64,000 nt of DNA, taken from contig NZ_CP028858.1 in NCBI RefSeq assembly GCF_003058365.1, positions 62,001 to 126,000 of the forward strand, in the 5' to 3' direction. Shown piece after piece: positions 5,616 through 33,364 of this stretch. The notes below the pieces were generated by a model. That model did no database searches. It was not told where the DNA came from and saw only the letters and a program-made list of their open reading frames with translations. How positions within the stretch are numbered: the first letter of the stretch is position 1; every line of letters begins with the position of its first letter. A program made the position numbers and the translations under genes. Source of the DNA: Halococcoides cellulosivorans (GTDB lineage Archaea > Halobacteriota > Halobacteria > Halobacteriales > Haloarculaceae).

Positions 5616-8048
5616 TCACCCGAACAGCCTGGTCCAGCCCCGGAGCGTCAGGGGTAAGATCGTCACCGTCGTGACGTAGGAGAACAGCGTGCTGATCCCG
5701 GTCAAGAGGCCGAACTCCCCGAGGATCGGGTTCACGGCGAGCGTCATACAGAGCACGCTCCCAGAGGTGGTCACCACGCTCGCGGTGATTCCCCCGCCGG
5801 TCCCGCCGAGCGTGACGAGCAGCGCCTCGTGGGTGGTTCCCCGGCGGTCGTACTCCTCGACGAATCGGTGGACGACGTGGACCGAGTAGTCGATGCCGAG
5901 GCCGATCGAAATCGAGAGGATCGTCGCCGTCAGCGCGTTGAACGCGATCCCGAGGGCGGGCATCGCGCCGACGAGCAACACGATGGCGACGGTGATCGGC
6001 ACCATCGTGACGACGCCCAGCGAGGGCCGGTCCTCGATGAGCCAGAAGACCGCCACCAGGAAGACGCCCGACAGTCCGTAGGCGAGCAGGAAACTCGACG
6101 CGGCCGACGCGAGCAGCGCCTCGGTCAGAGCCCGGAAGACGACTGTGTTGCCGGTGGCGACCGCGTCGTGGCGGGCGTCGGCGGCGAGAGCGCGGGTGTC
6201 CTCGGTCACGGCCTTCTGCCCCGCGCTCGCTTTCACCTGATAGACTACTCTGGTCGCCCGGCGATCTGCGGTGAGGTACTCGCGGGCCCGATCGCCGTAC
6301 TCGGAGGCGAACAGCGCGTCGTAGATCGGGTCGAGGTTTCGGTCGGGGACGCCGTTGCCCGAGAGGTCGTTGCGCTCGACGCGCGCCGCGAACTCGGGGT
6401 TCTCGCGGGCGTAGGCGTCGATCACGTCGAGGATGCTCTCGGAGACTGCGTGGCCGTCCTCGCGGACGAACGACTCGGGCGGATCGGACCCGGCACGGTG
6501 GACGGCTTCGAGGGCGTGATCGTCTTGCATGGGCCCCTCGACATAGAGGGTGACCTGTTCGGAGTTCGTGGTTTCGAAGGTCTCTGTGATGTATTGTGAG
6601 GTCGCCGTAATCTCGAACTCCGAGGGGGCGATCGCGTCGGGCAGGAGTGCGATCTGTGGCGGGTGATCGGCGTAGGGCAGGAAATCGTCACTTTCGAACT
6701 TGGACTCGACGTTGGTCGCCGAACTCGCTGCTGCGGTGGTGACGAGCAAGACGATGGCGACGAGCACGAGCGGGTGGCGTTTCGCGACGACCGCACTCGC
6801 TCTCAGCACGTCGCCCAGTCGGGACTGTTCGCCACCGATCGGCGTGATCGAGAACTGGCGGACGCCGAACCGCTCGCGGCCCCGATCGGCGAGCACCTTC
6901 GCAGCCGGCAAGAAGACACCGAACACGAGCAGGGTGAAGATCATCCCCACCGCGACGACGAGGCCGAACTCCTGGACGGGCGCGAGCGCACTGGAGACGT
7001 TCGCGAAAAACCCGATCACGTTCGTCACCGCGACGACGAAAAACGCCACCAGCAGACTGCGGACCGCGTCACGCATGCTCGGATCGATCGCCCGCCCGGC
7101 GACGCGCTCCTCGCGGTAGCGATTGATCGCGTGGATGCCGAAATCGATGCCGACGCCGAGCAACAACACTGGGACGGCGATCATCATCAAACTGAACGGG
7201 ATGCCGACCAGGCCCATGAACCCGAACGTCCAGACGATGGCGACGATCAGACTCACCAGCGCGAGCGCGAGGTCGATCGGGTCGCGGTAGGCCACGCTCA
7301 AAAAGAGCAAGATGAGGACGACCACGATCGGGACGATCAATCCGAGCGACTCACTGATCGCTCGATCGAAGCCCGCCGACTGGATCGCCGATCCGAACAC
7401 GCGAACGTCGCCGTCGCCGCTCTCGGCGGTCGCCTTTACGCGCTCCTGGACGGTCCGGAGGTGGGCGTCGTCACCCTCGGGGACCGTATGGGAGACCAAC
7501 AAGAGCGTCGCCGACGCCCGTGGCTCGTCGAGATTGCGCTCCTCACTGAGCAGCCGCGTGATCTCGGGGCGGCGATCGATCAGCGTCCGGGTCGCCGAGC
7601 GGACCTCTGCGGGTGAGGCCGTCTCGATCGCCCGGCGCTGGGCGTCGGTCGTCGTCGCCCATGGCTCGAGCACCCGGGCGGTGGCGCTGGCGATCCCCGT
7701 GACCGATCGGACGCGAAGCGACGGATCGGCCTCCAGTTGGGCCTGCACATCGAGCATGCGGAGCAACGCCCGCTTCGAGAGGACGTTTTCGTCGGTCACG
7801 ACCACCTGCGTCGAGGAGTCGTCGGGGTCGAACTGCGAGCCGAACTGGTCGTCGACGGTCTCCAGCGTGTCGTGTTCGGGGACGCTCTCGAAGAATCGCC
7901 CCGTCCCGGACTCGACGCCGACGCCGCCGAGTCCGCTCGCGAACACCGCGGTGAGGACGACGAACAGGACGACGATGCGGCCGGGCCGGTCGACGATCTG
8001 GTGGTCGACCGCCCTCACCACTCGCTCGGGGTCGACGATCGGGGCCAT
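5616..8048 (-). CDS. MMPL/RND superfamily exporter
   Basis: 810 residues with two similar halves, each a large extracytoplasmic loop followed by a cluster of about five membrane helices, plus one helix near residue 30. The conserved aspartate motifs GVGIDFGIHAINRYRE (near residue 300) and GLGIDYSVHVVHRF (near residue 735) mark the two MMPL domains. Proteins of this family export lipids or hydrophobic molecules driven by ion gradients. Its start is one base after the stop of the 1071-residue envelope protein gene, so the two are surely co-transcribed; the envelope protein is the likely partner. Cargo is unknown. Confidence 0.88.
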   Translation of the reverse strand: MAPIVDPERVVRAVDHQIVDRPGRIVVLFVVLTAVFASGLGGVGVESGTGRFFESVPEHDTLETVDDQFGSQFDPDDSSTQVVVTDENVLSKRALLRMLDVQAQLEADPSLRVRSVTGIASATARVLEPWATTTDAQRRAIETASPAEVRSATRTLIDRRPEITRLLSEERNLDEPRASATLLLVSHTVPEGDDAHLRTVQERVKATAESGDGDVRVFGSAIQSAGFDRAISESLGLIVPIVVVLILLFLSVAYRDPIDLALALVSLIVAIVWTFGFMGLVGIPFSLMMIAVPVLLLGVGIDFGIHAINRYREERVAGRAIDPSMRDAVRSLLVAFFVVAVTNVIGFFANVSSALAPVQEFGLVVAVGMIFTLLVFGVFLPAAKVLADRGRERFGVRQFSITPIGGEQSRLGDVLRASAVVAKRHPLVLVAIVLLVTTAAASSATNVESKFESDDFLPYADHPPQIALLPDAIAPSEFEITATSQYITETFETTNSEQVTLYVEGPMQDDHALEAVHRAGSDPPESFVREDGHAVSESILDVIDAYARENPEFAARVERNDLSGNGVPDRNLDPIYDALFASEYGDRAREYLTADRRATRVVYQVKASAGQKAVTEDTRALAADARHDAVATGNTVVFRALTEALLASAASSFLLAYGLSGVFLVAVFWLIEDRPSLGVVTMVPITVAIVLLVGAMPALGIAFNALTATILSISIGLGIDYSVHVVHRFVEEYDRRGTTHEALLVTLGGTGGGITASVVTTSGSVLCMTLAVNPILGEFGLLTGISTLFSYVTTVTILPLTLRGWTRLFG

Positions 8049-15032: not shown

Positions 15033-15455
15033 ATGCCCATCGTGAGCGTCTCGATGCCCGACGGCCTGGTCGAACGACTCGACCAGTTTGCCGCCGAGCA
15101 CGGGTACAGCGGGCGGAGCGAGGTGATCCGTGACGCCAGCCGCGAGTTGCTCGACGAGTTCGACGACCAGTCCCTCGAGGGTCGGGACCTGATGGCGACG
15201 GTGACGGTCCTGTTCGACTACCAGGCCGGCGAGGTCGAACGCGAGATGATGGACATCCGCCACGAGTTCGACGGCGTCGTCGCGTCGAACTTTCATACCC
15301 ACGTCGGTGACCGGTCCTGTCTCGAGCTGTTCGTCCTCGAGGGCTCGCTCGAAGCGATTTCGACGGTCGTCGGCGCGATTCGCGCGACCAGCGACGTCCA
15401 GACGGTCAGCTATTCGGTCCTCCCGATGGACGACGGCAACATTCTCGTGGAGTGA
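15033..15455 (+). CDS. nikR: NikR-type nickel-responsive regulator
   Basis: 140 residues. Residues 1-50 form a ribbon-helix-helix DNA-binding domain ([32 protein letters not shown]) and residues about 55-135 an ACT-like metal-binding domain (TVTVLFDYQ, then [20 protein letters not shown]), the NikR arrangement. The H-T-H and Cys in [10 protein letters not shown] match the nickel ligands of the family. NikR represses nickel uptake genes when nickel is plentiful. The CbiMNQO importer starts 530 bases downstream, beyond a Fic-like gene on the other strand, and is the likely target. Confidence 0.88.
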
Positions 15456-15985: not shown

Positions 15986-16654
15986 ATGGCACACATACAC
16001 CTCGGCGAGGGGGCCTTTCCGCTGTGGGCCCTCGTGGTCTGGTCGCTGGTCGGCGGCGGGTTGATCGCGGTCGTCGTCTACCGGATTCGGCGCAGTGGAA
16101 TCGATTCGCGACGGATCGCACTCGCGGGCATCGCCGCCGCAGCGAGTTTCGCGGTCTTTCAGCTGAACATCCCGATCTGGGGCGGGATCCACCTGAACTT
16201 CACCGCGCTGGTCGGGATCCTCGCGGGCCCGCTGCTCGGCCCGATCGTCGCGCTCGTCGTCAACGTCTTCTCGGCGGCGCTCGGCCACGGCGCGATCGGA
16301 CTACTCGGCGCGAACACGCTCGTCAACGCCACCGAAGCGGTCGGCGCATTCTACGGGTTCTGCCTGCTACGCGGGGCCGACTGGGATCCATTCCCGGCGG
16401 GGACCGCCGCCGCCACACTCGGTCTCGCGGCGGGGGCCGTGCTCATGGGCGTGATCGTCGTCGTGAGCGGCGTCAACGGGAGCGCACTCGGGCGCTCTGA
16501 TCTGACGATCGCCGTCGCGGGGATGGTCGCGCTGAATCTCGGCGTCGCGGTCGTCGAGGGCCTGCTCACGGGGCTAATCGTCCGATTCATCGCGTCGATC
16601 CGGCCCGACCTGATCGACGTGGGGGTCGATCGGCTGGCGGAGGTGCGTGCCTGA
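15986..16654 (+). CDS. cbiM: CbiM/NikM-type substrate-capture subunit of a Ni/Co ECF importer
   Basis: 222 residues with about six or seven membrane helices. The N-terminus MAHIHLGEGAFPLW corresponds to the CbiM/NikM start M-H-I-x-E-G, whose N-terminal amine and His2 bind the metal; here an Ala precedes the His, so removal of Met1 would restore a His at position 2. HLNFTAL and the NVFSAALGHGAIG segment supply further conserved residues, including the family's internal His. First gene of a four-gene overlapping operon. With NikR nearby nickel is the most likely substrate, though cobalt is possible. Confidence 0.88.
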   Translation: MAHIHLGEGAFPLWALVVWSLVGGGLIAVVVYRIRRSGIDSRRIALAGIAAAASFAVFQLNIPIWGGIHLNFTALVGILAGPLLGPIVALVVNVFSAALGHGAIGLLGANTLVNATEAVGAFYGFCLLRGADWDPFPAGTAAATLGLAAGAVLMGVIVVVSGVNGSALGRSDLTIAVAGMVALNLGVAVVEGLLTGLIVRFIASIRPDLIDVGVDRLAEVRA

Positions 16655-16953
16655 TGGATCGCACGCGACAGTACGGCGTGCTCTCGGCCCTGCTCGCGGT
16701 CTTCGCGGGATTGGGCTACGCTGGCTTCGTCGCGACCGGTGGCGCGGTGCCCTACGGCAAGCGATTCGCGACCTCGATTCAGCGCGGCGTCGAGTCAGGT
16801 GGCGGATCGCTGGTCGATCTCGGACGGGGCGTCATCCTCGCAGGCCCGATCCAGTCGAGTGTCGTAGAGTTCGTCTCCGTCCTCGGCGTGCTGACGGCCG
16901 CCGGGGTCGTGCTGTACCGCTACGCCGACCGACTGGCCGAGAGGGGTCGCTGA
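16654..16953 (+). CDS. CbiN/NikN-like small membrane subunit
   Basis: 99 residues with two membrane helices (about 7-27 and 66-88) and a short extracytoplasmic loop containing PYGKRFATS. It begins on the A of the preceding TGA (TGATG), so it is translated together with cbiM. The size, topology and position between CbiM and CbiQ are those of the CbiN/NikN component, but primary sequence similarity to bacterial CbiN is weak by eye. It does not show the PDGLE motif of the alternative small subunit. Confidence 0.7.
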   Translation: MDRTRQYGVLSALLAVFAGLGYAGFVATGGAVPYGKRFATSIQRGVESGGGSLVDLGRGVILAGPIQSSVVEFVSVLGVLTAAGVVLYRYADRLAERGR

Positions 16954-17759
16954 TGGCGGCCCTGTCGAGTCACGTCCCCGACCCGCGACTGATGACGGCG
17001 ATGGCCGAACACGGCGACGGCCTGCTCCACCGCGTGAACCCCTGGACGAAAGTCGCGATCCTCGGTGCGCTCGTCCTCGCGGTGACGATCATCGACGGCG
17101 TCGCCCTGCTGGTGGGGCTGTACGCCGCCGTGTTCGTCGCGTATCTCACGGCAGGGTTGCCCGTTCGACGACTGCTCGGGTGGTATAGCCTGCCCGTGCT
17201 GTTCGTCGTCTCGATCGGTGGGCCGCTGCTCGTGATGGAGCCAGGCACGCCGATCGGGCCAGTACTCGCGACGCCGCTGGGCGGCCTGTCGGTCACCATC
17301 GAGGGCGCACGACTCGTCGTCGAACTCGCTGCGCGGTCGATGGCGGTCGTTACGTTCGTCCTCGCGACGACGATGACGACGCCCTACGCCGACGTCGCGA
17401 CGGTCGTCGACCGACTCCTGCCGCGGCCGGTCGATCAGGTCGCACTCCTGACCTATCGGTTCACGTTCGTCATGCTCGAAACGCTCGAAGATCTGGTCGA
17501 TGCGGCCCGATCGCGCGGGGCGACGCTGTCGGCGTTCTGGTCGAACCGGCGGGTGTACGCCCGGATGCTCGGGATGACGATGATCACGGCGATCGAGCGC
17601 TCGGAGCGACTGGTCGCCGCGATGGAGGCCCGGGGCTACGACGGGTCGATCGCGATGACCAGCGAGATCCCTCGCCCGCCGCTCGCCGAACTCGTCGTCG
17701 TCGCCGCGACCTACCTGCTCGTGGGTGGCTACGCAGTCGCCACGGGTGCGTTCCTATGA
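16953..17759 (+). CDS. cbiQ: CbiQ-type ECF transporter transmembrane (T) component
   Basis: 268 residues with about five or six membrane helices. The T-component coupling motifs are present after the membrane core: ARSRGA near residue 184 and MEARGYDG near residue 226 (the two A-R-G helices that touch the ATPase). The start ATG at 16953 overlaps the previous TGA. It links substrate capture by CbiM to ATP hydrolysis by the CbiO-type protein. Confidence 0.9.
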   Translation: MAALSSHVPDPRLMTAMAEHGDGLLHRVNPWTKVAILGALVLAVTIIDGVALLVGLYAAVFVAYLTAGLPVRRLLGWYSLPVLFVVSIGGPLLVMEPGTPIGPVLATPLGGLSVTIEGARLVVELAARSMAVVTFVLATTMTTPYADVATVVDRLLPRPVDQVALLTYRFTFVMLETLEDLVDAARSRGATLSAFWSNRRVYARMLGMTMITAIERSERLVAAMEARGYDGSIAMTSEIPRPPLAELVVVAATYLLVGGYAVATGAFL

Positions 17760-18619
17760 GCGAATCGACCGACCCGCTGATCGATCTCGAATGCCAGTCA
17801 CACACCTACCCCGACGGGACCGTCGGCGTCCACGACATCGAGTTCGGCGTCGTTCCCGACGAGATCGTCGCCGTCGTCGGGCCCAATGGCTCGGGGAAAT
17901 CCACCTGTCTCGAACACCTGAACGCGACACTCGTCCCCGACGATGGCGAACTCGTCGTGCGGGGCACCGCGATTACGGCCGACAATCGCGAATACGCCCG
18001 CTCGGAGGTCGGCTTCGTCTTTCAGGACCCCGACACCCAACTGGTCGCGCCGACCGTCATCGACGACGTGAGCTTCGGGCTGACCAACCGCGGCGTGACC
18101 GGCGCGGCGGCCAGAGCGCGCGCACGCGATGCGCTCGATTCTGTCGGGGCCAAACACCTCGAAGACCGCGTTCCGCACTATCTCAGCGGCGGCGAGAAAC
18201 GACTGGTCGGCCTGGCTGGCGTCCTCGTTCTCGACCCGAGCGTGATCGTGCTGGACGAACCGTTCGCTGGACTCGACCCTGCACGATCGGCGATGGTCGC
18301 CGACCGTTTGCGGGAGATCCGCGCGTCGGGCATTAGCGTTGTGCTCTCGACGCACGACCTCGACGTGGCTGCGGACCTCGCGGACCGGGTCTGTGTGATG
18401 GACGACGGCAACGCGATCGGTGGCGGGACGCCTCGGGAGGTGTTCTACGACGCGGCCCTGCTCGATCGCGCGAATCTCACACCTCCGTCAGCGGTCCGGA
18501 TCGCTCGCGAACTGGGCCTCGACGCGAGCGAGCGCCCGCCGGTCACCGAGCGCGACCTCGTCGATCGGCTCGATGGCGTCGCTGGCTCTCCCCGGAACAT
18601 TGCCGCATCAGACGACTGA
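17756..18619 (+). CDS. cbiO: CbiO-type ECF transporter ATPase
   Basis: 287 residues, ABC ATPase. Walker A GPNGSGKST at about 42-50, Q-loop in FVFQDPDTQLVAP (the PDTQ form typical of ECF ATPases), signature YLSGGEKR, Walker B VIVLDEPFAGLDP and switch His in STHDLD. It overlaps the cbiQ stop by four bases (ATGA). Only one ATPase gene is present, so it should act as a homodimer. It is followed by convergent genes four bases away. Confidence 0.92.
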   Translation: MSESTDPLIDLECQSHTYPDGTVGVHDIEFGVVPDEIVAVVGPNGSGKSTCLEHLNATLVPDDGELVVRGTAITADNREYARSEVGFVFQDPDTQLVAPTVIDDVSFGLTNRGVTGAAARARARDALDSVGAKHLEDRVPHYLSGGEKRLVGLAGVLVLDPSVIVLDEPFAGLDPARSAMVADRLREIRASGISVVLSTHDLDVAADLADRVCVMDDGNAIGGGTPREVFYDAALLDRANLTPPSAVRIARELGLDASERPPVTERDLVDRLDGVAGSPRNIAASDD

Positions 18620-24728: not shown

Positions 24729-25550
24729 TCACGCGACGACCACGCTCCCCTCGGGCGCGCCGATGTCGTCGGCGACGACGCCGCATTTCACCAACAGCAG
24801 GAAGTAGATCGATGCGTCGCAATCGCTGAACAACTCGTAGTTGCCCTGGCCCTTGCTGATCACGACGTCGGCCGCCCGCAGGCGGTCAGCGAACCCGTCG
24901 GTGATCGTCCCCACGCCGTCCGTGCCGCGCGTCTCGACGGTGGCCACCTCGTCGATCCCGGCCGCAAACGCGTCCGCGGCGGTGACGTCGTTCAAAAACG
25001 GGTCGGCCTTCGCGACGGCAGTCACGTCCGCGTCGATCGATTCGATCAGGAGTCGATCGAGGACGACCTCGCCCGCATTGTCCAGCAGGTAGAGGACATC
25101 GTCGGCGTCGGCGAGATCGGCCCGGAGCGCGTCCAGCCGATCGATCGCGAACGATCGGTCGAGCACGTCGTCGATCGTCGCCTCGATGTCGACCTCGTGG
25201 CCCGGACCGACGTCGATGACGTTGCCCGCGATCGCCAGGCGAACCGCGCGCTCGAACCGGTCTGCCGCGCCGTCGAGGCGATCGACGAGTGCCGGGCGCA
25301 TGTCCGCGACGGTCTCGGTCGCCAGTCGCTTCCGGTCGCCGAACGGATCGTCGATTCCGGTCTCCTCGCGGACGATCGCTTGGGCCCGCGCGGCGATCGT
25401 CATCGGTGTTCGATCGAACGACATCTCGCCGATCGCCGTCGCGGTCCGCCGGACTGCGCGCCGTTCGGTCGCCACGTCGGCGTCGGTCTCGCGGACGGTG
25501 TCGAGGGCTTGCCGCAGCACACAGGGTCCACACTCCACGTGGGCGTCCAT
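24729..25550 (-). CDS. DUF89/ARMT1-like damage-control phosphatase
   Basis: 273 residues. All signature elements of the DUF89 family are visible: N-terminal Cys-x2-Cys (ECGPCVLRQ), the metal-binding LDNAGE motif in the middle, and SKGQGNYE near the end. The archaeal members are metal-dependent phosphatases thought to clear damaged or excess phosphometabolites. Start at ATG 25550 gives the expected position of the first cysteine pair. Confidence 0.9.
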   Translation of the reverse strand: MDAHVECGPCVLRQALDTVRETDADVATERRAVRRTATAIGEMSFDRTPMTIAARAQAIVREETGIDDPFGDRKRLATETVADMRPALVDRLDGAADRFERAVRLAIAGNVIDVGPGHEVDIEATIDDVLDRSFAIDRLDALRADLADADDVLYLLDNAGEVVLDRLLIESIDADVTAVAKADPFLNDVTAADAFAAGIDEVATVETRGTDGVGTITDGFADRLRAADVVISKGQGNYELFSDCDASIYFLLLVKCGVVADDIGAPEGSVVVA

Positions 25551-27352: not shown

Positions 27353-27402
27353 CTCGATCTAACTCGATCTAACTCGATCCGACTCGATCCGACTCGATCC
27401 AC
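27353..27402. repeat. five-copy 10-bp tandem repeat at the 3' end of the TrmO-FmdE gene
   Basis: Five consecutive 10-bp units of the form ctcgatc(t/c)(a/g)a run from 27353 to 27402. The stop codon of the TrmO-FmdE fusion gene (27369-27371) falls inside the second unit, so the last ten or so residues of that protein are made from the repeat. Copy-number change would alter the C-terminus, since 10 is not a multiple of 3. A shorter partial duplication (gatcgatcgg twice) lies just before it. Confidence 0.75.
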
Positions 27403-28487
27403 GAACAGCCACGCCCGTCGAGTTGGTGATACTCCGCGCCGGCACAGGCCCGACAGAAGCGCTCGGCGTCGCGTTCGACGGTCTTCGGCGCCATCACCGA
27501 CTCGCCACAGGCTGCACAGATCGCATCCTCGTAGATCGGGGCGGGATCGGGCAGATCGACCGCGACGCCCGTCTGGATGTCACACAACTCGCCGATCGGC
27601 CGGTCGAGCAGGTCGAACGCGACCTCGGCCCAGCGCTCGGCGAGTCGCTCGCGGTCGGCGTCGGTGCCCTCGCCGTCCGCGATCACGCGCTCGAACAGCG
27701 CGTTGGCCTCCGGATAGTCGCGCTCGACGATCGCCTCGCGTTCTTTGACGTGAACGCGCACGCCCGCGTCGGGGGCCGACCGCCTGACGAGCGTCATCGC
27801 GGTCTTCCCGAGGTCGCGATAGACCAGGGCGTTGTTCCCGACCGTACAGCCGGTCGCGACCTGCACCCCGTCGGCGAAACAGCTGTTCGTCTCCGTGACG
27901 GCGATCAGGTCCTCGAACCCGTCGCTGGTCGCGCCGAGTTCGCGCATGGCGTGGACGCCCGCCATCACCCCGAGCGCGAGATACGGGCAGTAGTGGCCGT
28001 GGATCCCGCCCGCCTCCAGGAGGACGGCCTCGCGATCACGGTCGGCGATCGCGCGCTCGACGTGCCCGCGCGGGTCTGCGCGCCGGTCGGTCTCGCGCGT
28101 TGGCCGGTCGAGACTCGGCGCGTAGGGCTTGAGATCCAGCACGGGCGTCCCGTCGATGGCGTCCAGGCCGCGAACGAGCAGTTCACGGCCGTCGCGCTCC
28201 AGCAACTCGACGGTCGTCGTCCCGATCGGACTCGGGCGGTGCGGACTCCGCGACGCGAACGTGCCGCGTTCGACGCCGTAGCGCCGTGGCCCCCGAAGCG
28301 TGGGCGCGTCGGCCTCGTGGATGTAGAACACGACCACGAGGTGATCGCTGTCCTCGATCCGATACAGCCCGTCGCTGTAGGCCTCGTCGATCACGATCGT
28401 ACTCTCCCGCTCACGCATCGTCTCGGGATCGCTTGGCTCGTCGAACGCACTGTGCACGGTCCCGATCTGTGTAATCGCCTCGAACAT
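27369..28487 (-). CDS. TrmO (TsaA)-FmdE fusion protein with C-terminal zinc ribbon
   Basis: 372 residues in three parts. Residues 1-125 are a TrmO/TsaA-like SAM-binding beta-barrel domain (ITQIGTVHSAF, SRSPHRPSPIG, LDAIDGTPVLDLKPY). Residues about 150-325 are an FmdE domain with its GIHGHYCPYLALG metal/cluster motif and TETNSCFADGVQVATGCT. Residues about 328-355 are a four-cysteine zinc ribbon (CAACGESV and CRACAG). FmdE is associated with molybdenum/tungsten enzymes and metal handling; its function is unproven. Three bases separate it from the upstream ABC ATPase gene, so it is the last gene of a four-gene operon. Its C-terminus is made of a tandem repeat. Confidence 0.82.
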   Translation of the reverse strand: MFEAITQIGTVHSAFDEPSDPETMRERESTIVIDEAYSDGLYRIEDSDHLVVVFYIHEADAPTLRGPRRYGVERGTFASRSPHRPSPIGTTTVELLERDGRELLVRGLDAIDGTPVLDLKPYAPSLDRPTRETDRRADPRGHVERAIADRDREAVLLEAGGIHGHYCPYLALGVMAGVHAMRELGATSDGFEDLIAVTETNSCFADGVQVATGCTVGNNALVYRDLGKTAMTLVRRSAPDAGVRVHVKEREAIVERDYPEANALFERVIADGEGTDADRERLAERWAEVAFDLLDRPIGELCDIQTGVAVDLPDPAPIYEDAICAACGESVMAPKTVERDAERFCRACAGAEYHQLDGRGCSWIESDRVGSS

Positions 28488-28490
28488 GAG

Positions 28491-29348
28491 TCAGTCCTGA
28501 GTCGTTGGCTCGGCGTGGTCGGTCGTCGGTCGGGGTCGATCCGGGTCGTCGCCCGGATCGGTCGCTCCGCGGTCGCCTGCGGCGGCACTCGGGACGGGCG
28601 CGTCGGGCACGATCACCCGTCGATCGCGATGGGTCAGGACGCTCGCTTCGACGCCGTAGACGGCCTCGATGCGCTCGGGCGTGAGGATCTCCGGCCCGCC
28701 GACGGCGTGGACCTGCCCGTCGGCGAGCAAGGCGACGCGATCGCAGGAGCGCGCGGCGAGGGTGAGGTCGTGGATCGCGACGATCCCCGCCACGTCGTCG
28801 CCGACCTGCCTGCGAATCTCATCGATCACGCGGAGGCGGTGCTGTAAATCGAGCGCGCTCGTCGGTTCGTCGAGGACGAGCACCTCGGGATCACCGACGA
28901 GCGCGCGACCCAGCCGTACTTTCTGGCGCTGCCCACCCGAGAGATCCGCTATCTTCCGGGTCGCGAGGTCCGCCAGGCCGAGGCGGTCGATCGTCTCACG
29001 GACCGCCGCGCGGTCGCGCGCGCTCGGTGCCCACCCGCCGTGGGGGCGCCGGCCCTGCAGGATCGTCTCGAACACCGTCGCGGGGAACGCTCGCGACTCG
29101 GACTGGGGGACGTAGCCGACCCGCCGGGCGCGCTCGTCGCTCGCGAGGTGGTCGATCGGCGTGCCGTCGAGGGTAATCGACCCGGCGTCGGGGTCGAGCA
29201 GGCCGACGACACACTGCAGCAGGGTGGACTTGCCCGACCCGTTCGGGCCGAGCACGCCGAGGAGTTCGCCTGCCTCGACGCGCAGGCTGAGGCCGTCGAG
29301 GACGCGCTCGTCGTAGCCAACGTGTAGGTCGTCGATCTGGAGGGTCAC
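28491..29348 (-). CDS. BtuD/FecE-type ABC transporter ATPase
   Basis: 285 residues. Walker A GPNGSGKST at about 37-45, Q-loop in GYVPQSE, signature LSGGQRQKVRLGRALV, Walker B VLVLDEPTSALD and switch AIHDLTLAA. It belongs to the iron-chelate/cobalamin importer subfamily. The frame is open upstream, but similarity begins at the GTG at 29348, which overlaps the permease stop as GTGA. The C-terminal 30 residues are a polar, Asp/Pro-rich tail. Confidence 0.9.
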   Translation of the reverse strand: MTLQIDDLHVGYDERVLDGLSLRVEAGELLGVLGPNGSGKSTLLQCVVGLLDPDAGSITLDGTPIDHLASDERARRVGYVPQSESRAFPATVFETILQGRRPHGGWAPSARDRAAVRETIDRLGLADLATRKIADLSGGQRQKVRLGRALVGDPEVLVLDEPTSALDLQHRLRVIDEIRRQVGDDVAGIVAIHDLTLAARSCDRVALLADGQVHAVGGPEILTPERIEAVYGVEASVLTHRDRRVIVPDAPVPSAAAGDRGATDPGDDPDRPRPTTDHAEPTTQD

Positions 29349-30367
29349 CAGTACGCACCGCCCCGAACGACGAGATAGAGAAAGAGTGGCGCGCCGAGCA
29401 GCGAGGTCAAAATTCCGACCGGGAGGACGACCGGTGCGAGCACCGTCCGGGCGGCGGTGTCGGCAGCCACCAGCAGCGTCGCCCCCGTCAGGATCGACCC
29501 GGGGAGGAGAGACCGCTCGGTCCCGCCGATCACCATCCGGACGAGGTGCGGGGCGACGAGGCCGACGAACCCGATGATGCCGACGAAGGAGACGACCAGC
29601 GCAGTCACGAGCGACGCGACGGCCATCCCGCCGATCCGGAGGCGTGTCACGTTCACCCCGAGACTCCGTGCGGTCGCGGTGCCGGCGTCGAGCACGTCGT
29701 AGTCCCAGCCGTGCCGCAAAAAGTACAGGCTCGCGAGGCCGACGACCGCCGCCAGCAGGCCCACCTGCCACCACCCCGCCCGGCCCAGATCACCGAACGT
29801 CCAGTAGACGATCGCGGCGGTCTCGGTGTCGCTCGCGAGATACTGGATTAGCGTCAGGCCGGCCGAGAACAGCGATCCGAGCGCGACGCCGGTGAGGATC
29901 ATCGTCTCCGGGGTGGCCTCGCGATAGGTGACCAGCGCGAGGATGACGCCCGTCGAGACGAGGCCGCCCGCGAACGCTGCGATCGGGGTCTGGAGCGTGC
30001 CGAGTGGGCCGTCCGTGATTCCGGCGACGATCGCGATCGCCGCGCCGAACGCCGCCGCCTGTGAGATCCCCAGTGTGTAGGGCGCACCCAGCGGGTTTCG
30101 GAGGACGGTCTGCATCACCGCGCCCGCGACGGCGAGTCCCCCGCCCGCCAGCAGCGCCGCGAGCACGCGCGGGACGCGCACCTGCCAGACGATCGTCCGG
30201 GCCGTCGCGGTCCCACCGCCCACGAGAGCGGCGAGCACCGCGCTCGCGGACAGGTCCGCCGATCCGATCGCGAGCGCGCCGAGCGTGGCGAATAGCGCCA
30301 GGCCGACGCCGCCGAACAGGCCGACGCGCTCGCGAAGCCTCGATCGCTGAGTGATCGTTTCGGTCAT
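29345..30367 (-). CDS. BtuC/FecCD-type ABC transporter permease
   Basis: 340 residues with eight to ten hydrophobic segments. LAGGGLAVAGAVMQTVLRNPLGAP-like sequence near residue 75 is the hallmark of FecCD/BtuC permeases (A-G-A-x-x-Q-x-x-x-x-N-P-L-A-x-P). The start ATG 30367 overlaps the stop of the binding-protein gene (ATGA). It would carry a metal chelate or corrinoid across the membrane. Confidence 0.92.
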   Translation of the reverse strand: MTETITQRSRLRERVGLFGGVGLALFATLGALAIGSADLSASAVLAALVGGGTATARTIVWQVRVPRVLAALLAGGGLAVAGAVMQTVLRNPLGAPYTLGISQAAAFGAAIAIVAGITDGPLGTLQTPIAAFAGGLVSTGVILALVTYREATPETMILTGVALGSLFSAGLTLIQYLASDTETAAIVYWTFGDLGRAGWWQVGLLAAVVGLASLYFLRHGWDYDVLDAGTATARSLGVNVTRLRIGGMAVASLVTALVVSFVGIIGFVGLVAPHLVRMVIGGTERSLLPGSILTGATLLVAADTAARTVLAPVVLPVGILTSLLGAPLFLYLVVRGGAYW

Positions 30368-31446
30368 GGATCGATGCGCTCGATGGCAGGATACGCTTCG
30401 CGGAGGTCGTCGATCAGCGGTGCCCCGAGCATCGCCTCGAAGATCTCGTCCGCCCGGGCGGCGACACGCACGTCCGCGAACCGGTCGGGATAGACGGTTT
30501 TGCCGACGAAAGTCGCGTTCGCGAGGATCGAACCGTAGTTGTGGTGATAGCTGGCGTGGGGCAACAACGTGTAGAGTTCCCCGGTCTCGATCGCGTCGTT
30601 CGAGGCGTACGTGGAGTCGTCGAGATCCGCACGCGCCCGGTCGAGGTTGTCGGCGGCGAGAAACAGCGTCGCGGGATCCCACGCCAGCAGGCGCTCGGGG
30701 TCGATCTGGACCGACGGCGCGTCGGTGTCGATGTCGCTGGCGACGTTGTCGACTCCGGTCCAGCGAAAGGGGGCGAACCGCTTGCGCGTCGTCGCGAGGC
30801 CGTGCGCGCCCTTGTAGCTGATCGCGCCCGCGTACGCGTCCTCGCGCTCGGCGTCGGGGATCGACGCGGTCCGTTCGGCCAGGTCGTCGATCGTCTCCTC
30901 GACGAACGCGATGAGCGTCTCGGCGCGATCACCGCGGTCGAGGACCGCTCCCAGCAGTCGCCAGGTCTCGAACATCGTCGCACGCGACTCCCGATCGACG
31001 ATGTCGACGATGTCGAGGGCGAGGACGGGCGTGTCGGTCTGGGACTGCAGGGTCTCCGCACGGGATGGGTCGCCGTAGAAGACGATCAGATCGGGGTCCA
31101 CCCCGAGGATCGCCTCGGTGTTCCCGCCGGCGTTCGGGCCCGCCGATCCGATCACCGGCCGGTCGGCCAGATCGGGATTCGCCAGGCGATAGGGGGTGAC
31201 GCCGACCCCCACTTCGGACTCGACGCCCACCACGCGGTCGGTCGCCCCGAGGTAGGCGATCTGTCTGAGTGCGCCCGGCCCGACGCCGACGAGGCGCTCG
31301 ACCCGGTCGGGGACGGCGACCGTCCGACCCATCCCGTCGGTGACGGTCCGCTCGGCCGCTCCCGCCCCATCGCCGCTCGAACACCCCGCGAGCGCGACCG
31401 TCGCGCCCGCCCCCAGCGTCTGCAGGACCTCGCGTCGTCGTGCCAT
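30364..31446 (-). CDS. BtuF-type substrate-binding lipoprotein of the metal-chelate importer
   Basis: 360 residues. Tat lipoprotein signal MARRREVLQTLGAGATVALAGCSS (lipobox Cys22), then a periplasmic-binding class III fold beginning with the typical MGRTVAVPDRVERLVGVGPGALR. VDPDLIVFYGD is the usual second strand of the first lobe. It captures the substrate outside the membrane. First gene of the four-gene operon; a nested palindrome starts 26 bases before its ATG. Substrate (Fe, Ni, Mo/W chelate or corrinoid) is not shown by the sequence. Confidence 0.9.
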   Translation of the reverse strand: MARRREVLQTLGAGATVALAGCSSGDGAGAAERTVTDGMGRTVAVPDRVERLVGVGPGALRQIAYLGATDRVVGVESEVGVGVTPYRLANPDLADRPVIGSAGPNAGGNTEAILGVDPDLIVFYGDPSRAETLQSQTDTPVLALDIVDIVDRESRATMFETWRLLGAVLDRGDRAETLIAFVEETIDDLAERTASIPDAEREDAYAGAISYKGAHGLATTRKRFAPFRWTGVDNVASDIDTDAPSVQIDPERLLAWDPATLFLAADNLDRARADLDDSTYASNDAIETGELYTLLPHASYHHNYGSILANATFVGKTVYPDRFADVRVAARADEIFEAMLGAPLIDDLREAYPAIERIDP

Positions 31447-31471
31447 TCCGTCGCGGTACTGGCCCTCGAAA

Positions 31472-31497
31472 TATTACGGTTTCGAAACTCAGTAATA
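31472..31497 (-). promoter_or_regulatory. nested palindrome at the promoter of the metal-chelate importer operon
   Basis: TATTAC (31472-31477) and GTAATA (31492-31497) form an outer inverted repeat that encloses the perfect palindrome GTTTCGAAAC (31479-31488). On the minus strand gtaatattt (31470-31478) is a TATA-like box about 25-30 bases before the ATG at 31446, so a leaderless transcript would start at the gene. A repressor on the dyad would cover the TATA box; a metal-dependent regulator of the DtxR/SirR type is a plausible but unproven owner. Confidence 0.55.
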
Positions 31498-31590
31498 CTC
31501 TCTGTCGACCGGACTCGATCGCGCGTTCGGCAGTCGGGGCACGCGGGCGATCCGCAACGACTTTCGATATCGGCAATCCTTTCGTCACAC

Positions 31591-32823
31591 ATGGTATCGG
31601 TTCGCGCCGTCGGGGTGGCCGTCGTGATCGTGCTTTTCGCGGCCGTCGCTGTCGGCGGCGCACTGGCCTCTCCAGGCCACGGGAACGGGGCCGCGGTGGG
31701 TGTCGACACGAGCGACTCGCTTTCACCGGCCGAAACGCACGCGGCCCAGCACCCGGCGACCGAGAACGCGACCGTCGAGATCGTCTTCTTCCATCTGCCA
31801 ACCTGTCCGCACTGTGCGAACGTCGAGGCGTATCTCGACGAACAGCGTAGCGAGTACGACTTTCGAGTCGAGAAGTACAACGCTCGGGACAACTCCGAAC
31901 GGTTCACGGAGTATCTGCAGGAGTACGACGTTCCACGGGACGACTGGGGGGCCGTCCCGGCGGTCTTCGTCGACGACGAGTACGCCATCGGAGACCGACC
32001 GTCGATCGATCTGATCGAGTCCAGGTTGGAGGCGGCGACCGAGGCGCCCACGGAGACGACCGACGGGGTGGCCGGCGACGCCTCGAACGCCGAATCGGAT
32101 GGCGATCTCGAAGCGGTGACGCTGGTCGGCCTCGCGGGGATGGCGGCGACCGACGCGGTCAACCCGTGTGCGCTCGCGGTGTTGCTCGTCTTGTTGACGA
32201 CGATCCTGACGCGCAACCCCGAGGATCACGGCCGCGTCCTCCGGGCGGGCCTGGCATTTTCGATCGCGGTCGCACTCACTTACGCCGCGATGGGTGCCCT
32301 GCTGGTGTTCGGACTCAAATCCGTCGCCTCGGTCGGATCGATCGATCTGCCGATCGTCCGGCGACTGTTCGGCGTGCTCGCGATCGGCCTCGGCCTCCTG
32401 AATCTCAAGGACGCGATCAGCCACGGTGCTGGCGGGTTCGCGATGGAGGTGCCAGAGCGCTGGCGCCCCGCGATGCAGCGGCGACTCACGGACCCGCTGT
32501 GGACTCGGGAGAGCGCCGTCGTTGGGTCGGCGCTCGCGGGCGTCGGCGTGAGTCTGTTCTTGTTGCCCTGCACGGCGGGCCCGTATCTCGTCGCGGGCGG
32601 CCTGCTCGCAAACCAGGCCTGGCCGACGGCGATCGCCCTGCTCGTGGTCTACAACCTGATCTTCGTCGCGCCGATGCTCGCGATCACCGTCGCCGTGTCG
32701 GGTGGGTTCGCGACCGCCGACGCGGTCGGGACCTGGCGCGAGCGACACGTCGAGGGACTGCACCTCGTCGCGGGCCTGTTGCTCGTCGCGATCGGTGTGG
32801 CGCTCGCAGTCGGCCTGCTCTGA
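31591..32823 (+). CDS. thioredoxin-like domain fused to CcdA/DsbD-type membrane protein
   Basis: 410 residues. Residues 1-30 are a signal/membrane anchor. Residues about 60-150 are a thioredoxin/glutaredoxin-like domain with FFHLPTCPHCANVE (Cys-x2-Cys) exposed outside the cell. Residues about 180-410 form a CcdA-type six-helix membrane part with a conserved cysteine in each repeat: VNPCALAVLL and FLLPCTAGPY. Such proteins move reducing power from cytoplasmic thioredoxin to the outside. The long open frame upstream is ignored; homology starts at ATG 31591. Divergent from the importer operon. Confidence 0.85.
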   Translation: MVSVRAVGVAVVIVLFAAVAVGGALASPGHGNGAAVGVDTSDSLSPAETHAAQHPATENATVEIVFFHLPTCPHCANVEAYLDEQRSEYDFRVEKYNARDNSERFTEYLQEYDVPRDDWGAVPAVFVDDEYAIGDRPSIDLIESRLEAATEAPTETTDGVAGDASNAESDGDLEAVTLVGLAGMAATDAVNPCALAVLLVLLTTILTRNPEDHGRVLRAGLAFSIAVALTYAAMGALLVFGLKSVASVGSIDLPIVRRLFGVLAIGLGLLNLKDAISHGAGGFAMEVPERWRPAMQRRLTDPLWTRESAVVGSALAGVGVSLFLLPCTAGPYLVAGGLLANQAWPTAIALLVVYNLIFVAPMLAITVAVSGGFATADAVGTWRERHVEGLHLVAGLLLVAIGVALAVGLL

Positions 32824-32878: not shown

Positions 32879-33364
32879 GTGACCGACGAATCGCGTTTCG
32901 CACCGATCGGTCGGATTCGGACGCCGTACGACTCCCTCGAAGGAATGCCGATCCAGCCCTCGATCGCTGACGACACGCCCGGGACCGTCGACCTCGACGA
33001 GGACTACGCCCCCGCGCTCGCCGATCTCGACGGCTTCTCGCATTGCATTTTGCTCTACCAGTTCCACGAGGCCGATGGGTACGAGCCAAGCGTCACCCCG
33101 TTTCTCGACGAGGAATCGCGGGGCCTGTTCGCGACGCGCGCGCCGACCCGCCCGAATCCGATCGGGCTCTCGGTGGTGGCGATCGAATCGGTCGAGGGCG
33201 CGAGCATCGCGGTTCGCGGGATCGACGTGCTCGACGGGACGCCGCTGCTCGACGTGAAACCGTTCGTGCCCGACTTCGACGTGCCCGAGGCGGCCGAGAC
33301 TGGCTGGATGGCCGCGGTCGACGAGGACGACGGCCGCCGATACGCCGACGATCGGTTCGTGTGA
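32879..33364 (+). CDS. trmO: TrmO (TsaA), tRNA m6t6A37 methyltransferase (GTG start)
   Basis: 161 residues, a single TrmO/TsaA beta-barrel domain: FAPIGRIRTPY at the N-terminus, ATRAPTRPNPIGLS (the core SAM-binding motif) and GIDVLDGTPLLDVKPFVP. In bacteria TrmO methylates N6-threonylcarbamoyladenosine at position 37 of tRNA-Thr. The start is a GTG at 32879; there is no nearby ATG in frame. It follows the thioredoxin-CcdA gene by 55 bases. A second TrmO domain sits 4.4 kb away in the TrmO-FmdE fusion. Confidence 0.85.
   Translation: MTDESRFAPIGRIRTPYDSLEGMPIQPSIADDTPGTVDLDEDYAPALADLDGFSHCILLYQFHEADGYEPSVTPFLDEESRGLFATRAPTRPNPIGLSVVAIESVEGASIAVRGIDVLDGTPLLDVKPFVPDFDVPEAAETGWMAAVDEDDGRRYADDRFV

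Follow-up and report, generated by a model that had tools for sequence, protein, structure and literature searches.

We analysed a stretch of 64,000 nucleotides from the haloarchaeon Halococcoides cellulosivorans (NCBI RefSeq assembly GCF_003058365.1, contig NZ_CP028858.1, positions 62,001 to 126,000), hereafter called the window, in which an importer operon ends in a gene for a TrmO-FmdE-zinc-ribbon fusion protein whose connection with nickel is the subject of this report. The operon lies on the minus strand and consists of four genes. The first (30364..31446) encodes a BtuF-like lipoprotein, that is, a substrate-binding protein of the Pfam family Peripla_BP_2 with an N-terminus (RRR...LAGC) of the twin-arginine translocation (Tat) lipoprotein type. 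It is followed through an ATGA overlap by a BtuC/FecCD-type permease (29345..30367; PF01032, 307 bits) and through a GTGA overlap by a BtuD-type ATPase (28491..29348; PF00005). Three bases after btuD starts the gene of the fusion protein (27369..28487), which has 372 amino acids. This arrangement had been read from the letters alone, and the gene order, both overlaps and the three-base gap were all verified here. With a Peripla_BP_2 protein, a FecCD permease and an ATP-binding cassette (ABC) ATPase in one operon, the locus has the gene set of a type II importer of the BtuFCD/FecBCD class. The best solved relative of the BtuF-like protein was 2etv (E 6.7e-58), which we take to be TM0189; a literature search on TM0189 found no paper. 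The source genome (2.72 Mb) carries one FmdE and encodes a [NiFe] hydrogenase (motifs RICGIC and DPCLSC).

The TrmO_N part of the fusion, a class VIII S-adenosylmethionine (SAM)-binding barrel, covers amino acids 18-127 (28107..28436, minus strand as for the other parts; Pfam, 103 bits), and the FmdE part covers amino acids 162-302 (27582..28004; Pfam, 122 bits). The C4 zinc ribbon (zf-dskA_traR) covers amino acids 318-354 (27426..27536; Pfam, 27 bits with a cut-off of 24.9) and has its cysteines at C324, C327, C345 and C348. We predicted the structure by AlphaFold2 from 25 relatives (mean predicted local distance difference test score, pLDDT, 80.1; residues 57-81 poor), and in structure comparison the model matched the TrmO structures 2nv4 and 7btu and the FmdE structures 2gvi and 2glz. 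The union of the three domains in one protein, proposed by the sequence-only reading, was thus borne out by Pfam and by the structure matches.

The core of FmdE (PF02663), HxHxC with a distal Cys, is present in the fusion. According to the accessible part of a 2010 report by the Joint Center for Structural Genomics (JCSG; PMC2954224), crystallised FmdE homologues hold a metal by His, His, Cys and a distal Cys, and the homologue of Desulfitobacterium was crystallised with mixed Zn/Ni at the metal site. Mapped from these homologues, the ligands in the fusion are H163, H165, C167 and C203, and in the alignment they were invariant in 20 of 20 relatives, as were the four cysteines of the zinc ribbon. 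The C-terminal zinc finger of two-domain FmdE members is also present.

In a scan of genome contigs, two Halorhabdus and two Spirochaetota metagenome-assembled genomes proved to have all four genes in the same operon. Since both the order of the operon and the fusion recur in Halorhabdus and Spirochaetota, they are not due to chance. Wider searches gave more full-length fusions in haloarchaea, Spirochaetota, the rest of the source phylum and one Clostridia-type phylum; the labels "Clostridia-type", "Archaeoglobi-like" and "Methanosarcinaceae-type" are interpretations made in this analysis. Counting each genome once, we obtained 20 fusions (19 full, one short). BtuFCD adjoins the fusion in 17 of them (G000, G144, G268, G318, G139, G239, G392, G393, G448, G469, G887, G879, G942, G982, G1420, G1474 and G1462), where the contig of G942 ends within btuF and the ATPase of G469 was not recognised as a single open frame. 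The Archaeoglobi-like genomes (family f15) have the fusion ahead of btuF, not after btuD. As for the other three, NikABCDE adjoins the fusion in G1398, larE-larB-larC1-larC2-nikR adjoins it in G1180, and G805 has none of these. The functional tie between fusion and metal import, which the sequence-only reading had drawn from the tight operon, is supported by these counts. Fusions without an importer, which that reading had named as evidence to the contrary, were found at just two of the 20 loci, G805 and G1180, and the latter is a larEBC-nikR operon. A stricter view, that the fusion is an obligate partner of an importer, was rejected, because these two loci have neither BtuFCD nor NikABCDE. 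Near the fusion of G805 (L137 7097-8179) we recognised no metal importer; a P-type-ATPase-like gene lies about 2 kb upstream.

Upstream of the window operon, 24 bp before the start of btuF, lies a predicted NikR operator, AGTATTACTGAGTTTCGAAACCGTAATATT (31470..31499, minus strand), which is an imperfect inverted repeat. The 30-bp element AGTATTAYT-N13-GTAWTATT was found upstream of btuF in all seven operons of the window/Halorhabdus type, five with the fusion and two with TrmO alone. We searched eight whole genomes for it with up to two mismatches, and a reversed control pattern gave at most one match per genome. The 12 exact copies, from seven genomes, were all located at the btuF operon or between the divergent nikR and nikMQO. 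Seven Halorhabdus genomes have the element between nikR and nikMQO, five of them exactly and two with one mismatch; in Halorhabdus G078, a genome without the operon, the one-mismatch copy between nikR and nikM is the only one. The source genome has one exact copy, at the btuF operon. Its only other match was a low-complexity site with two mismatches, and the genome-wide search found no exact site at either of its nikR genes. The intergenic region of the predicted site is shared by a divergent gene (31593-32823, plus strand), about 150 bp upstream of btuF, which is apparently a fusion of a thioredoxin-like domain and a CcdA-type membrane part.

For the bacterial operons we used the delta-proteobacterial NikR signal, whose halves GTGTTAC/GTAACAC lie 13-14 bp apart in inverted or reversed orientation (PMC545781); the search took these halves with N13 and no mismatch, GTRTTAY halves being allowed. 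In five genomes of the Spirochaetota and the Clostridia-type phylum, mismatch-free boxes precede the nikR/importer/fusion unit, 19-43 bp before its first gene; their orientation is reversed in G393 and G1462, inverted in G1474 and direct in G1398 and G469. The operon boxes of G393, G1462 and G1398 are the only such sites genome-wide. G469 (5.3 Mb) has three sites, before the fusion operon, before nikM and before larE-larB next to a NikR-like gene, the genes behind the last two sites having been identified by reading protein sequences. One further site of G1474 has no nickel neighbour, the one site of G448 lies away from the operon, and G392 and G1420 have one-mismatch boxes only. Letter shuffles and the reversed pattern were used as chance controls. 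The reversed pattern had no match in the three Clostridia-type genomes with sites, one in G393 and three in G469; in these last two, therefore, the position of the sites and not their number is the argument.

Nickel genes also stand beside the fusion. Within the window, 12 kb from the operon and on the plus strand, there are nikR (15033..15455; PF08753, 72 bits), one of two in the genome, and the substrate component nikM/cbiM (15986..16654; PF01891), the transmembrane component nikQ/cbiQ (16950..17759; PF02361; start not certain) and the ATPase nikO/cbiO (17756..18619; PF00005) of an energy-coupling factor (ECF) importer. NikR is encoded in 20 of the 22 carriers checked, and in G268, G393, G1180 and G1462 nikR is next to the fusion or to its importer. 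Genes for nikMQO lie 3.4 kb from the operon in G318, a nikABCDE context was seen in G1398 and G1326, and the fusion operons of G1180 and G1462 contain larE, larB, larC1 and larC2, the genes for the nickel-pincer cofactor, of which the scanned ones were above the NCBIfam cut-offs. We think that the cargo of the importer is almost certainly nickel. The two NikR copies of the source genome (window 15033-15455 and G000:C1:1098620-1098953) are diverged paralogues, and Halorhabdus has up to three.

The sequence-only reading had mentioned a link of FmdE proteins with molybdenum/tungsten (Mo/W) enzymes. This angle was not supported, since the NikR operators, nikR, nikMQO, nikABCDE and larEBC all point to nickel. 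By a rival explanation, the fusion would be a regulatory subunit tied to a Mo/W formylmethanofuran dehydrogenase. The FmdE family name speaks for this, and the accessible part of a 2024 survey of archaeal fusions (PMC11237513) tentatively suggests such a dehydrogenase role for the fusions in Methanosarcinales and Archaeoglobales. However, the neighbours read in the haloarchaeal, Spirochaetota and Clostridia-type loci included no recognisable dehydrogenase genes, no fmd/fwd catalytic subunit genes were recognised around the window operon or in the related loci read, the regulator is NikR and not a Mo/W regulator, and just 13 of 208 FmdE genes lie near fmd. The Mo/W context was rejected, as no Mo/W genes were recognised at most loci, only G1180 having a tungstate-like PBP_like_2 transporter, downstream; we regard the dehydrogenase role as hardly credible.

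We then consider the TrmO domain. A separate, canonical TrmO/YaeB gene, which keeps the IQP and RPNPIG motifs, lies outside the operon and 1.4 kb upstream of it (32882..33364, plus strand). The source genome thus has two clear TrmO genes, besides a third, weak match below the cut-off, and the fusion is not its sole TrmO. In a maximum-likelihood tree of 51 sequences, 18 importer-linked domains, which we call type A, formed one clade (support 100/98). Eleven of them are fused to FmdE, including that of G805 with no importer nearby, and seven stand alone in the importer operon (Halorhabdus G049 and G088; methanogens G1003, G1070, G897, G789 and G972). The stand-alone TrmO directly follows btuD in two methanogens (L149 7112-7501; L151 about 7060-7440). 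The four Archaeoglobi-like fusions group with AF0241 (support 99/93), outside type A, and this placement in the tree indicates that the TrmO-FmdE fusion had at least two separate origins, both of them next to BtuFCD. A TrmO domain next to a nickel importer is the constant feature; FmdE is fused to it in some lineages and missing from the operon in others.

The window fusion keeps the SAM-contact residues R80, D109 and K120, which correspond to R82, D111 and K122 of AF0241 and are strictly conserved across type A, also where FmdE is absent. The fourth SAM contact, the Gln equivalent to Gln22 of AF0241, is lost in the type-A domains (n=18), in a loosely aligned column; the aligned loop stretch has no Gln in any type-A row except that of G469 (MQKK, just after the conserved Met). 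The hallmark Asn of RPNPIG is Ser in the window fusion, and Ser or Thr in 17 of the 18 type-A domains. The tRNA-binding DPRxxY C-terminal domain, a feature of bacterial TrmO that archaeal homologues generally lack, is absent from the fusion, and FmdE and the zinc ribbon follow the barrel instead. In E. coli TrmO, mutation of the corresponding Gln, Arg, Asp and Lys impairs N6-methyl-N6-threonylcarbamoyladenosine (m6t6A), and the conserved Asn is listed among the TrmO residues; m6t6A was not detected in archaeal tRNA, and another substrate was suggested for archaeal YaeB (PMC4132733).

From these data we can judge whether the fusion is a tRNA methyltransferase which adjusts translation to the nickel status. 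Its barrel is of class VIII, and its match to TIGR00104, the TrmO equivalog, is just over the cut-off (99.6 versus 93.25 bits). Yet the window already holds a canonical TrmO, the fusion lacks the DPRxxY domain, which E. coli TrmO needs, archaeal tRNA is without detected m6t6A (PMC4132733), the Gln is lost and the Asn mostly replaced, and the fusion is under nickel control beside importers. A tRNA enzyme was rejected as the principal explanation and seems very improbable to us; that is, the earlier proposal that the fusion is not a tRNA enzyme is very probably right. Two further TrmO groups were observed. One of them, a separate clade (L152, L153, L154, L156 and L008), is encoded close to FmdE and to ABC genes of the metal/peptide type. 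In this clade Cys replaces the SAM-carboxylate Arg (CSPARPNP), and at two loci the TrmO is joined to a class I methyltransferase. A third haloarchaeal TrmO-like group (L019-L028; RPNPIAQT motif) has unrelated gene neighbourhoods in the loci read and was rejected as a further set of importer partners.

Because the fusion accompanies two unrelated importer types, occurs in a larEBC-nikR operon without either of them, and is under nickel control, we expect it to work in the cytosol on what is imported, and not as a part of the transporter. It is probably a cytosolic nickel-handling protein, and would be the partner of the nickel supply line rather than of the transporter as such. We propose that NikR leaves its operator when nickel is scarce, that the operon is thereby derepressed, and that the BtuF-like lipoprotein, the BtuC-like permease and the BtuD-like ATPase then import a nickel chelate. 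The TrmO barrel may bind SAM, and FmdE may offer the His-x-His-x-Cys and Cys metal site. A SAM-dependent modification of the imported chelate or of its ligand would release nickel to the FmdE site, from which it could be passed to nickel enzymes such as the [NiFe] hydrogenase of the genome. A SAM-dependent reaction is favoured because the residues of the SAM pocket are kept and because the methanogen and Archaeoglobi-like operons contain extra methyltransferase genes. The operon structure, the shared operator, the nickel gene context across phyla, the residue conservation and the clade structure are computed; the binding of SAM, the presence of nickel at the FmdE site, the reaction and the nature of the chelate we infer. 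Taken as a whole, a NikR-controlled nickel-chelate uptake operon whose fusion processes the imported chelate SAM-dependently is, we believe, a fairly probable explanation. A further step, which we offer tentatively and hold to be somewhat doubtful, is that the fusion is a class VIII SAM-dependent enzyme making or dismantling a nickel metallophore, with FmdE as the nickel acceptor, in a pathway common to haloarchaea, methanogens, Archaeoglobi-like archaea, Spirochaetota and Clostridia-type bacteria.

The main rival of the chelate-processing explanation is a nickel metallochaperone or sensor without methyl transfer. SAM would then be bound as a metabolic signal, and the FmdE site would carry nickel, or report it, to partners such as NikR, LarC or the maturation of hydrogenase. 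That the SAM-amino Gln and the RPN Asn have been lost, that the metal ligands are fully conserved and that larC and nikR share the operon in G1180 and G1462 is in accord with this, and metal sensing by FmdE was proposed in the accessible part of the JCSG report (PMC2954224). On the other hand, R80, D109 and K120 stay strictly conserved even in operons without FmdE, and the extra methyltransferase genes of several operons argue for chemistry. We consider such a chaperone or sensor unlikely, though it deserves attention.

It could also be supposed that a nickelophore is the product of the fusion. Among known metallophores, staphylopine and nicotianamine derive from SAM. By analogy with staphylopine, the barrel would transfer a methyl or aminocarboxypropyl group of SAM, and the chelator would be exported and imported again as its nickel complex. 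A SAM-binding protein beside both BtuFCD and NikABCDE importers would suit this scheme, but neither an exporter nor a further biosynthetic gene recurs consistently, and the fusion also occurs with larEBC-nikR where a BtuFCD or NikABCDE importer is lacking. This synthesis seems to us rather improbable.

Several points weigh against the preferred explanation, SAM-dependent processing of an imported nickel chelate under NikR. FmdE is missing from the operon in the two Halorhabdus and in the Methanosarcinaceae-type genomes, and therefore it is not essential to the system. With the SAM-contact Gln lost, SAM may be bound only weakly, or the protein may serve another purpose, and the SAM-dependent chemistry of the fusion is hypothetical. 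NikR is predicted to bind the 30-bp site, whose Halorhabdus form is for the most part a direct repeat and not an inverted one, and no NikR box was found upstream of the Archaeoglobi-like or methanogen operons or those of G448 and G1180. Moreover, G1420 has a CbiM-type neighbour labelled cobalt by NCBIfam, and a slight probability must be left for cobalt as the cargo in place of nickel.

Other genes recur in these neighbourhoods. NifX/FeMo-co-type (PF02579) proteins were seen near the operon, in most loci with a metallo-beta-lactamase-fold protein (L043 4574-5865, L044 8276-9570, L005 12667-13886, L006 12892-15854 and L007 2741-3520); in G049 and G088 genes of both kinds directly follow TrmO, at the place of the missing FmdE. 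An ARMT1/DUF89-type metal-dependent phosphatase gene is found near the fusion operon in the window (24729-25550, minus strand), in other haloarchaea and in two Spirochaetota loci (L004 12192-13013; L064 3380-4198; L006 9036-9923; L007 13706-14587). Flavin-reductase-like genes follow the fusion in G1420 (L221 8038-8556; Pfam) and an FmdE gene in G947 (L155 5912-6493; similarity at its start), hinting at a reductive step.

These results move the importer-linked subset of FmdE and archaeal YaeB/TrmO to nickel supply, with a named regulator and operator, and assign a testable task to two protein families whose role is unsettled. If the SAM-dependent nickel-chelate step is real, it would add to nickel metabolism a new element that precedes hydrogenase and the assembly of the nickel-pincer cofactor. 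The metallophore proposal, if true, would give archaeal YaeB-type proteins and FmdE a common function that concerns neither tRNA nor molybdenum.

The FmdE-UPF0066 fusion architecture is already on record in the JCSG report, which noted FmdE genes next to metal transporters, and in the 2024 survey. In their accessible parts (PMC2954224, PMC11237513), fusions of the same domain architecture appear without a link to nickel uptake, NikR or LarBCE, and relative to these parts the TrmO domain alone in the same operon slot is new. Our literature search, with subscription papers mostly outside it, found no paper joining FmdE, TsaA or the fusion with NikR, nickel uptake or LarBCE. The fusion has the same HxHxC and Cys metal site as the FmdE structures 2glz, 2gvi and 3d00 and a C-terminal C4 zinc finger as in 3d00; unlike these proteins, it is joined to a TrmO barrel and lies in a nickel regulon, not in an fmd operon. 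With the TrmO/YaeB proteins (UPF0066: AF0241, E. coli TrmO) it shares the barrel fold and the three conserved SAM contacts, but it differs from them in lacking Gln22 and the DPRxxY domain, in the change of RPN mostly to RP[ST], in its separate clade, in its coexistence with a canonical TrmO and in its union with FmdE.

As for the importer, NiuBDE of Helicobacter belongs to the FecCD/BtuCD superfamily. It was named as a nickel importer in the accessible part of PMC7840056, so that the same superfamily there serves nickel instead of iron or B12. Unlike NiuBDE, the window operon has a dedicated SAM-binding/FmdE accessory protein, and the NikR boxes are of the delta-proteobacterial type. The delta-proteobacterial NikR regulons (nikMNQO, hydAB; PMC545781) have the same type of operator, with 7-bp halves 13 bp apart, which occurs here also in direct orientation and reads GTATTAC/GTATTAT in its haloarchaeal variant as compared with GTGTTAC/GTAACAC. 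Unlike those regulons, the present ones include a BtuFCD importer together with its TrmO-FmdE protein, and that of one genome also larE-larB. Thus, NikR-controlled nickel import is already known as a type of system, and what is new is the accessory TrmO-FmdE protein and the extended regulon.

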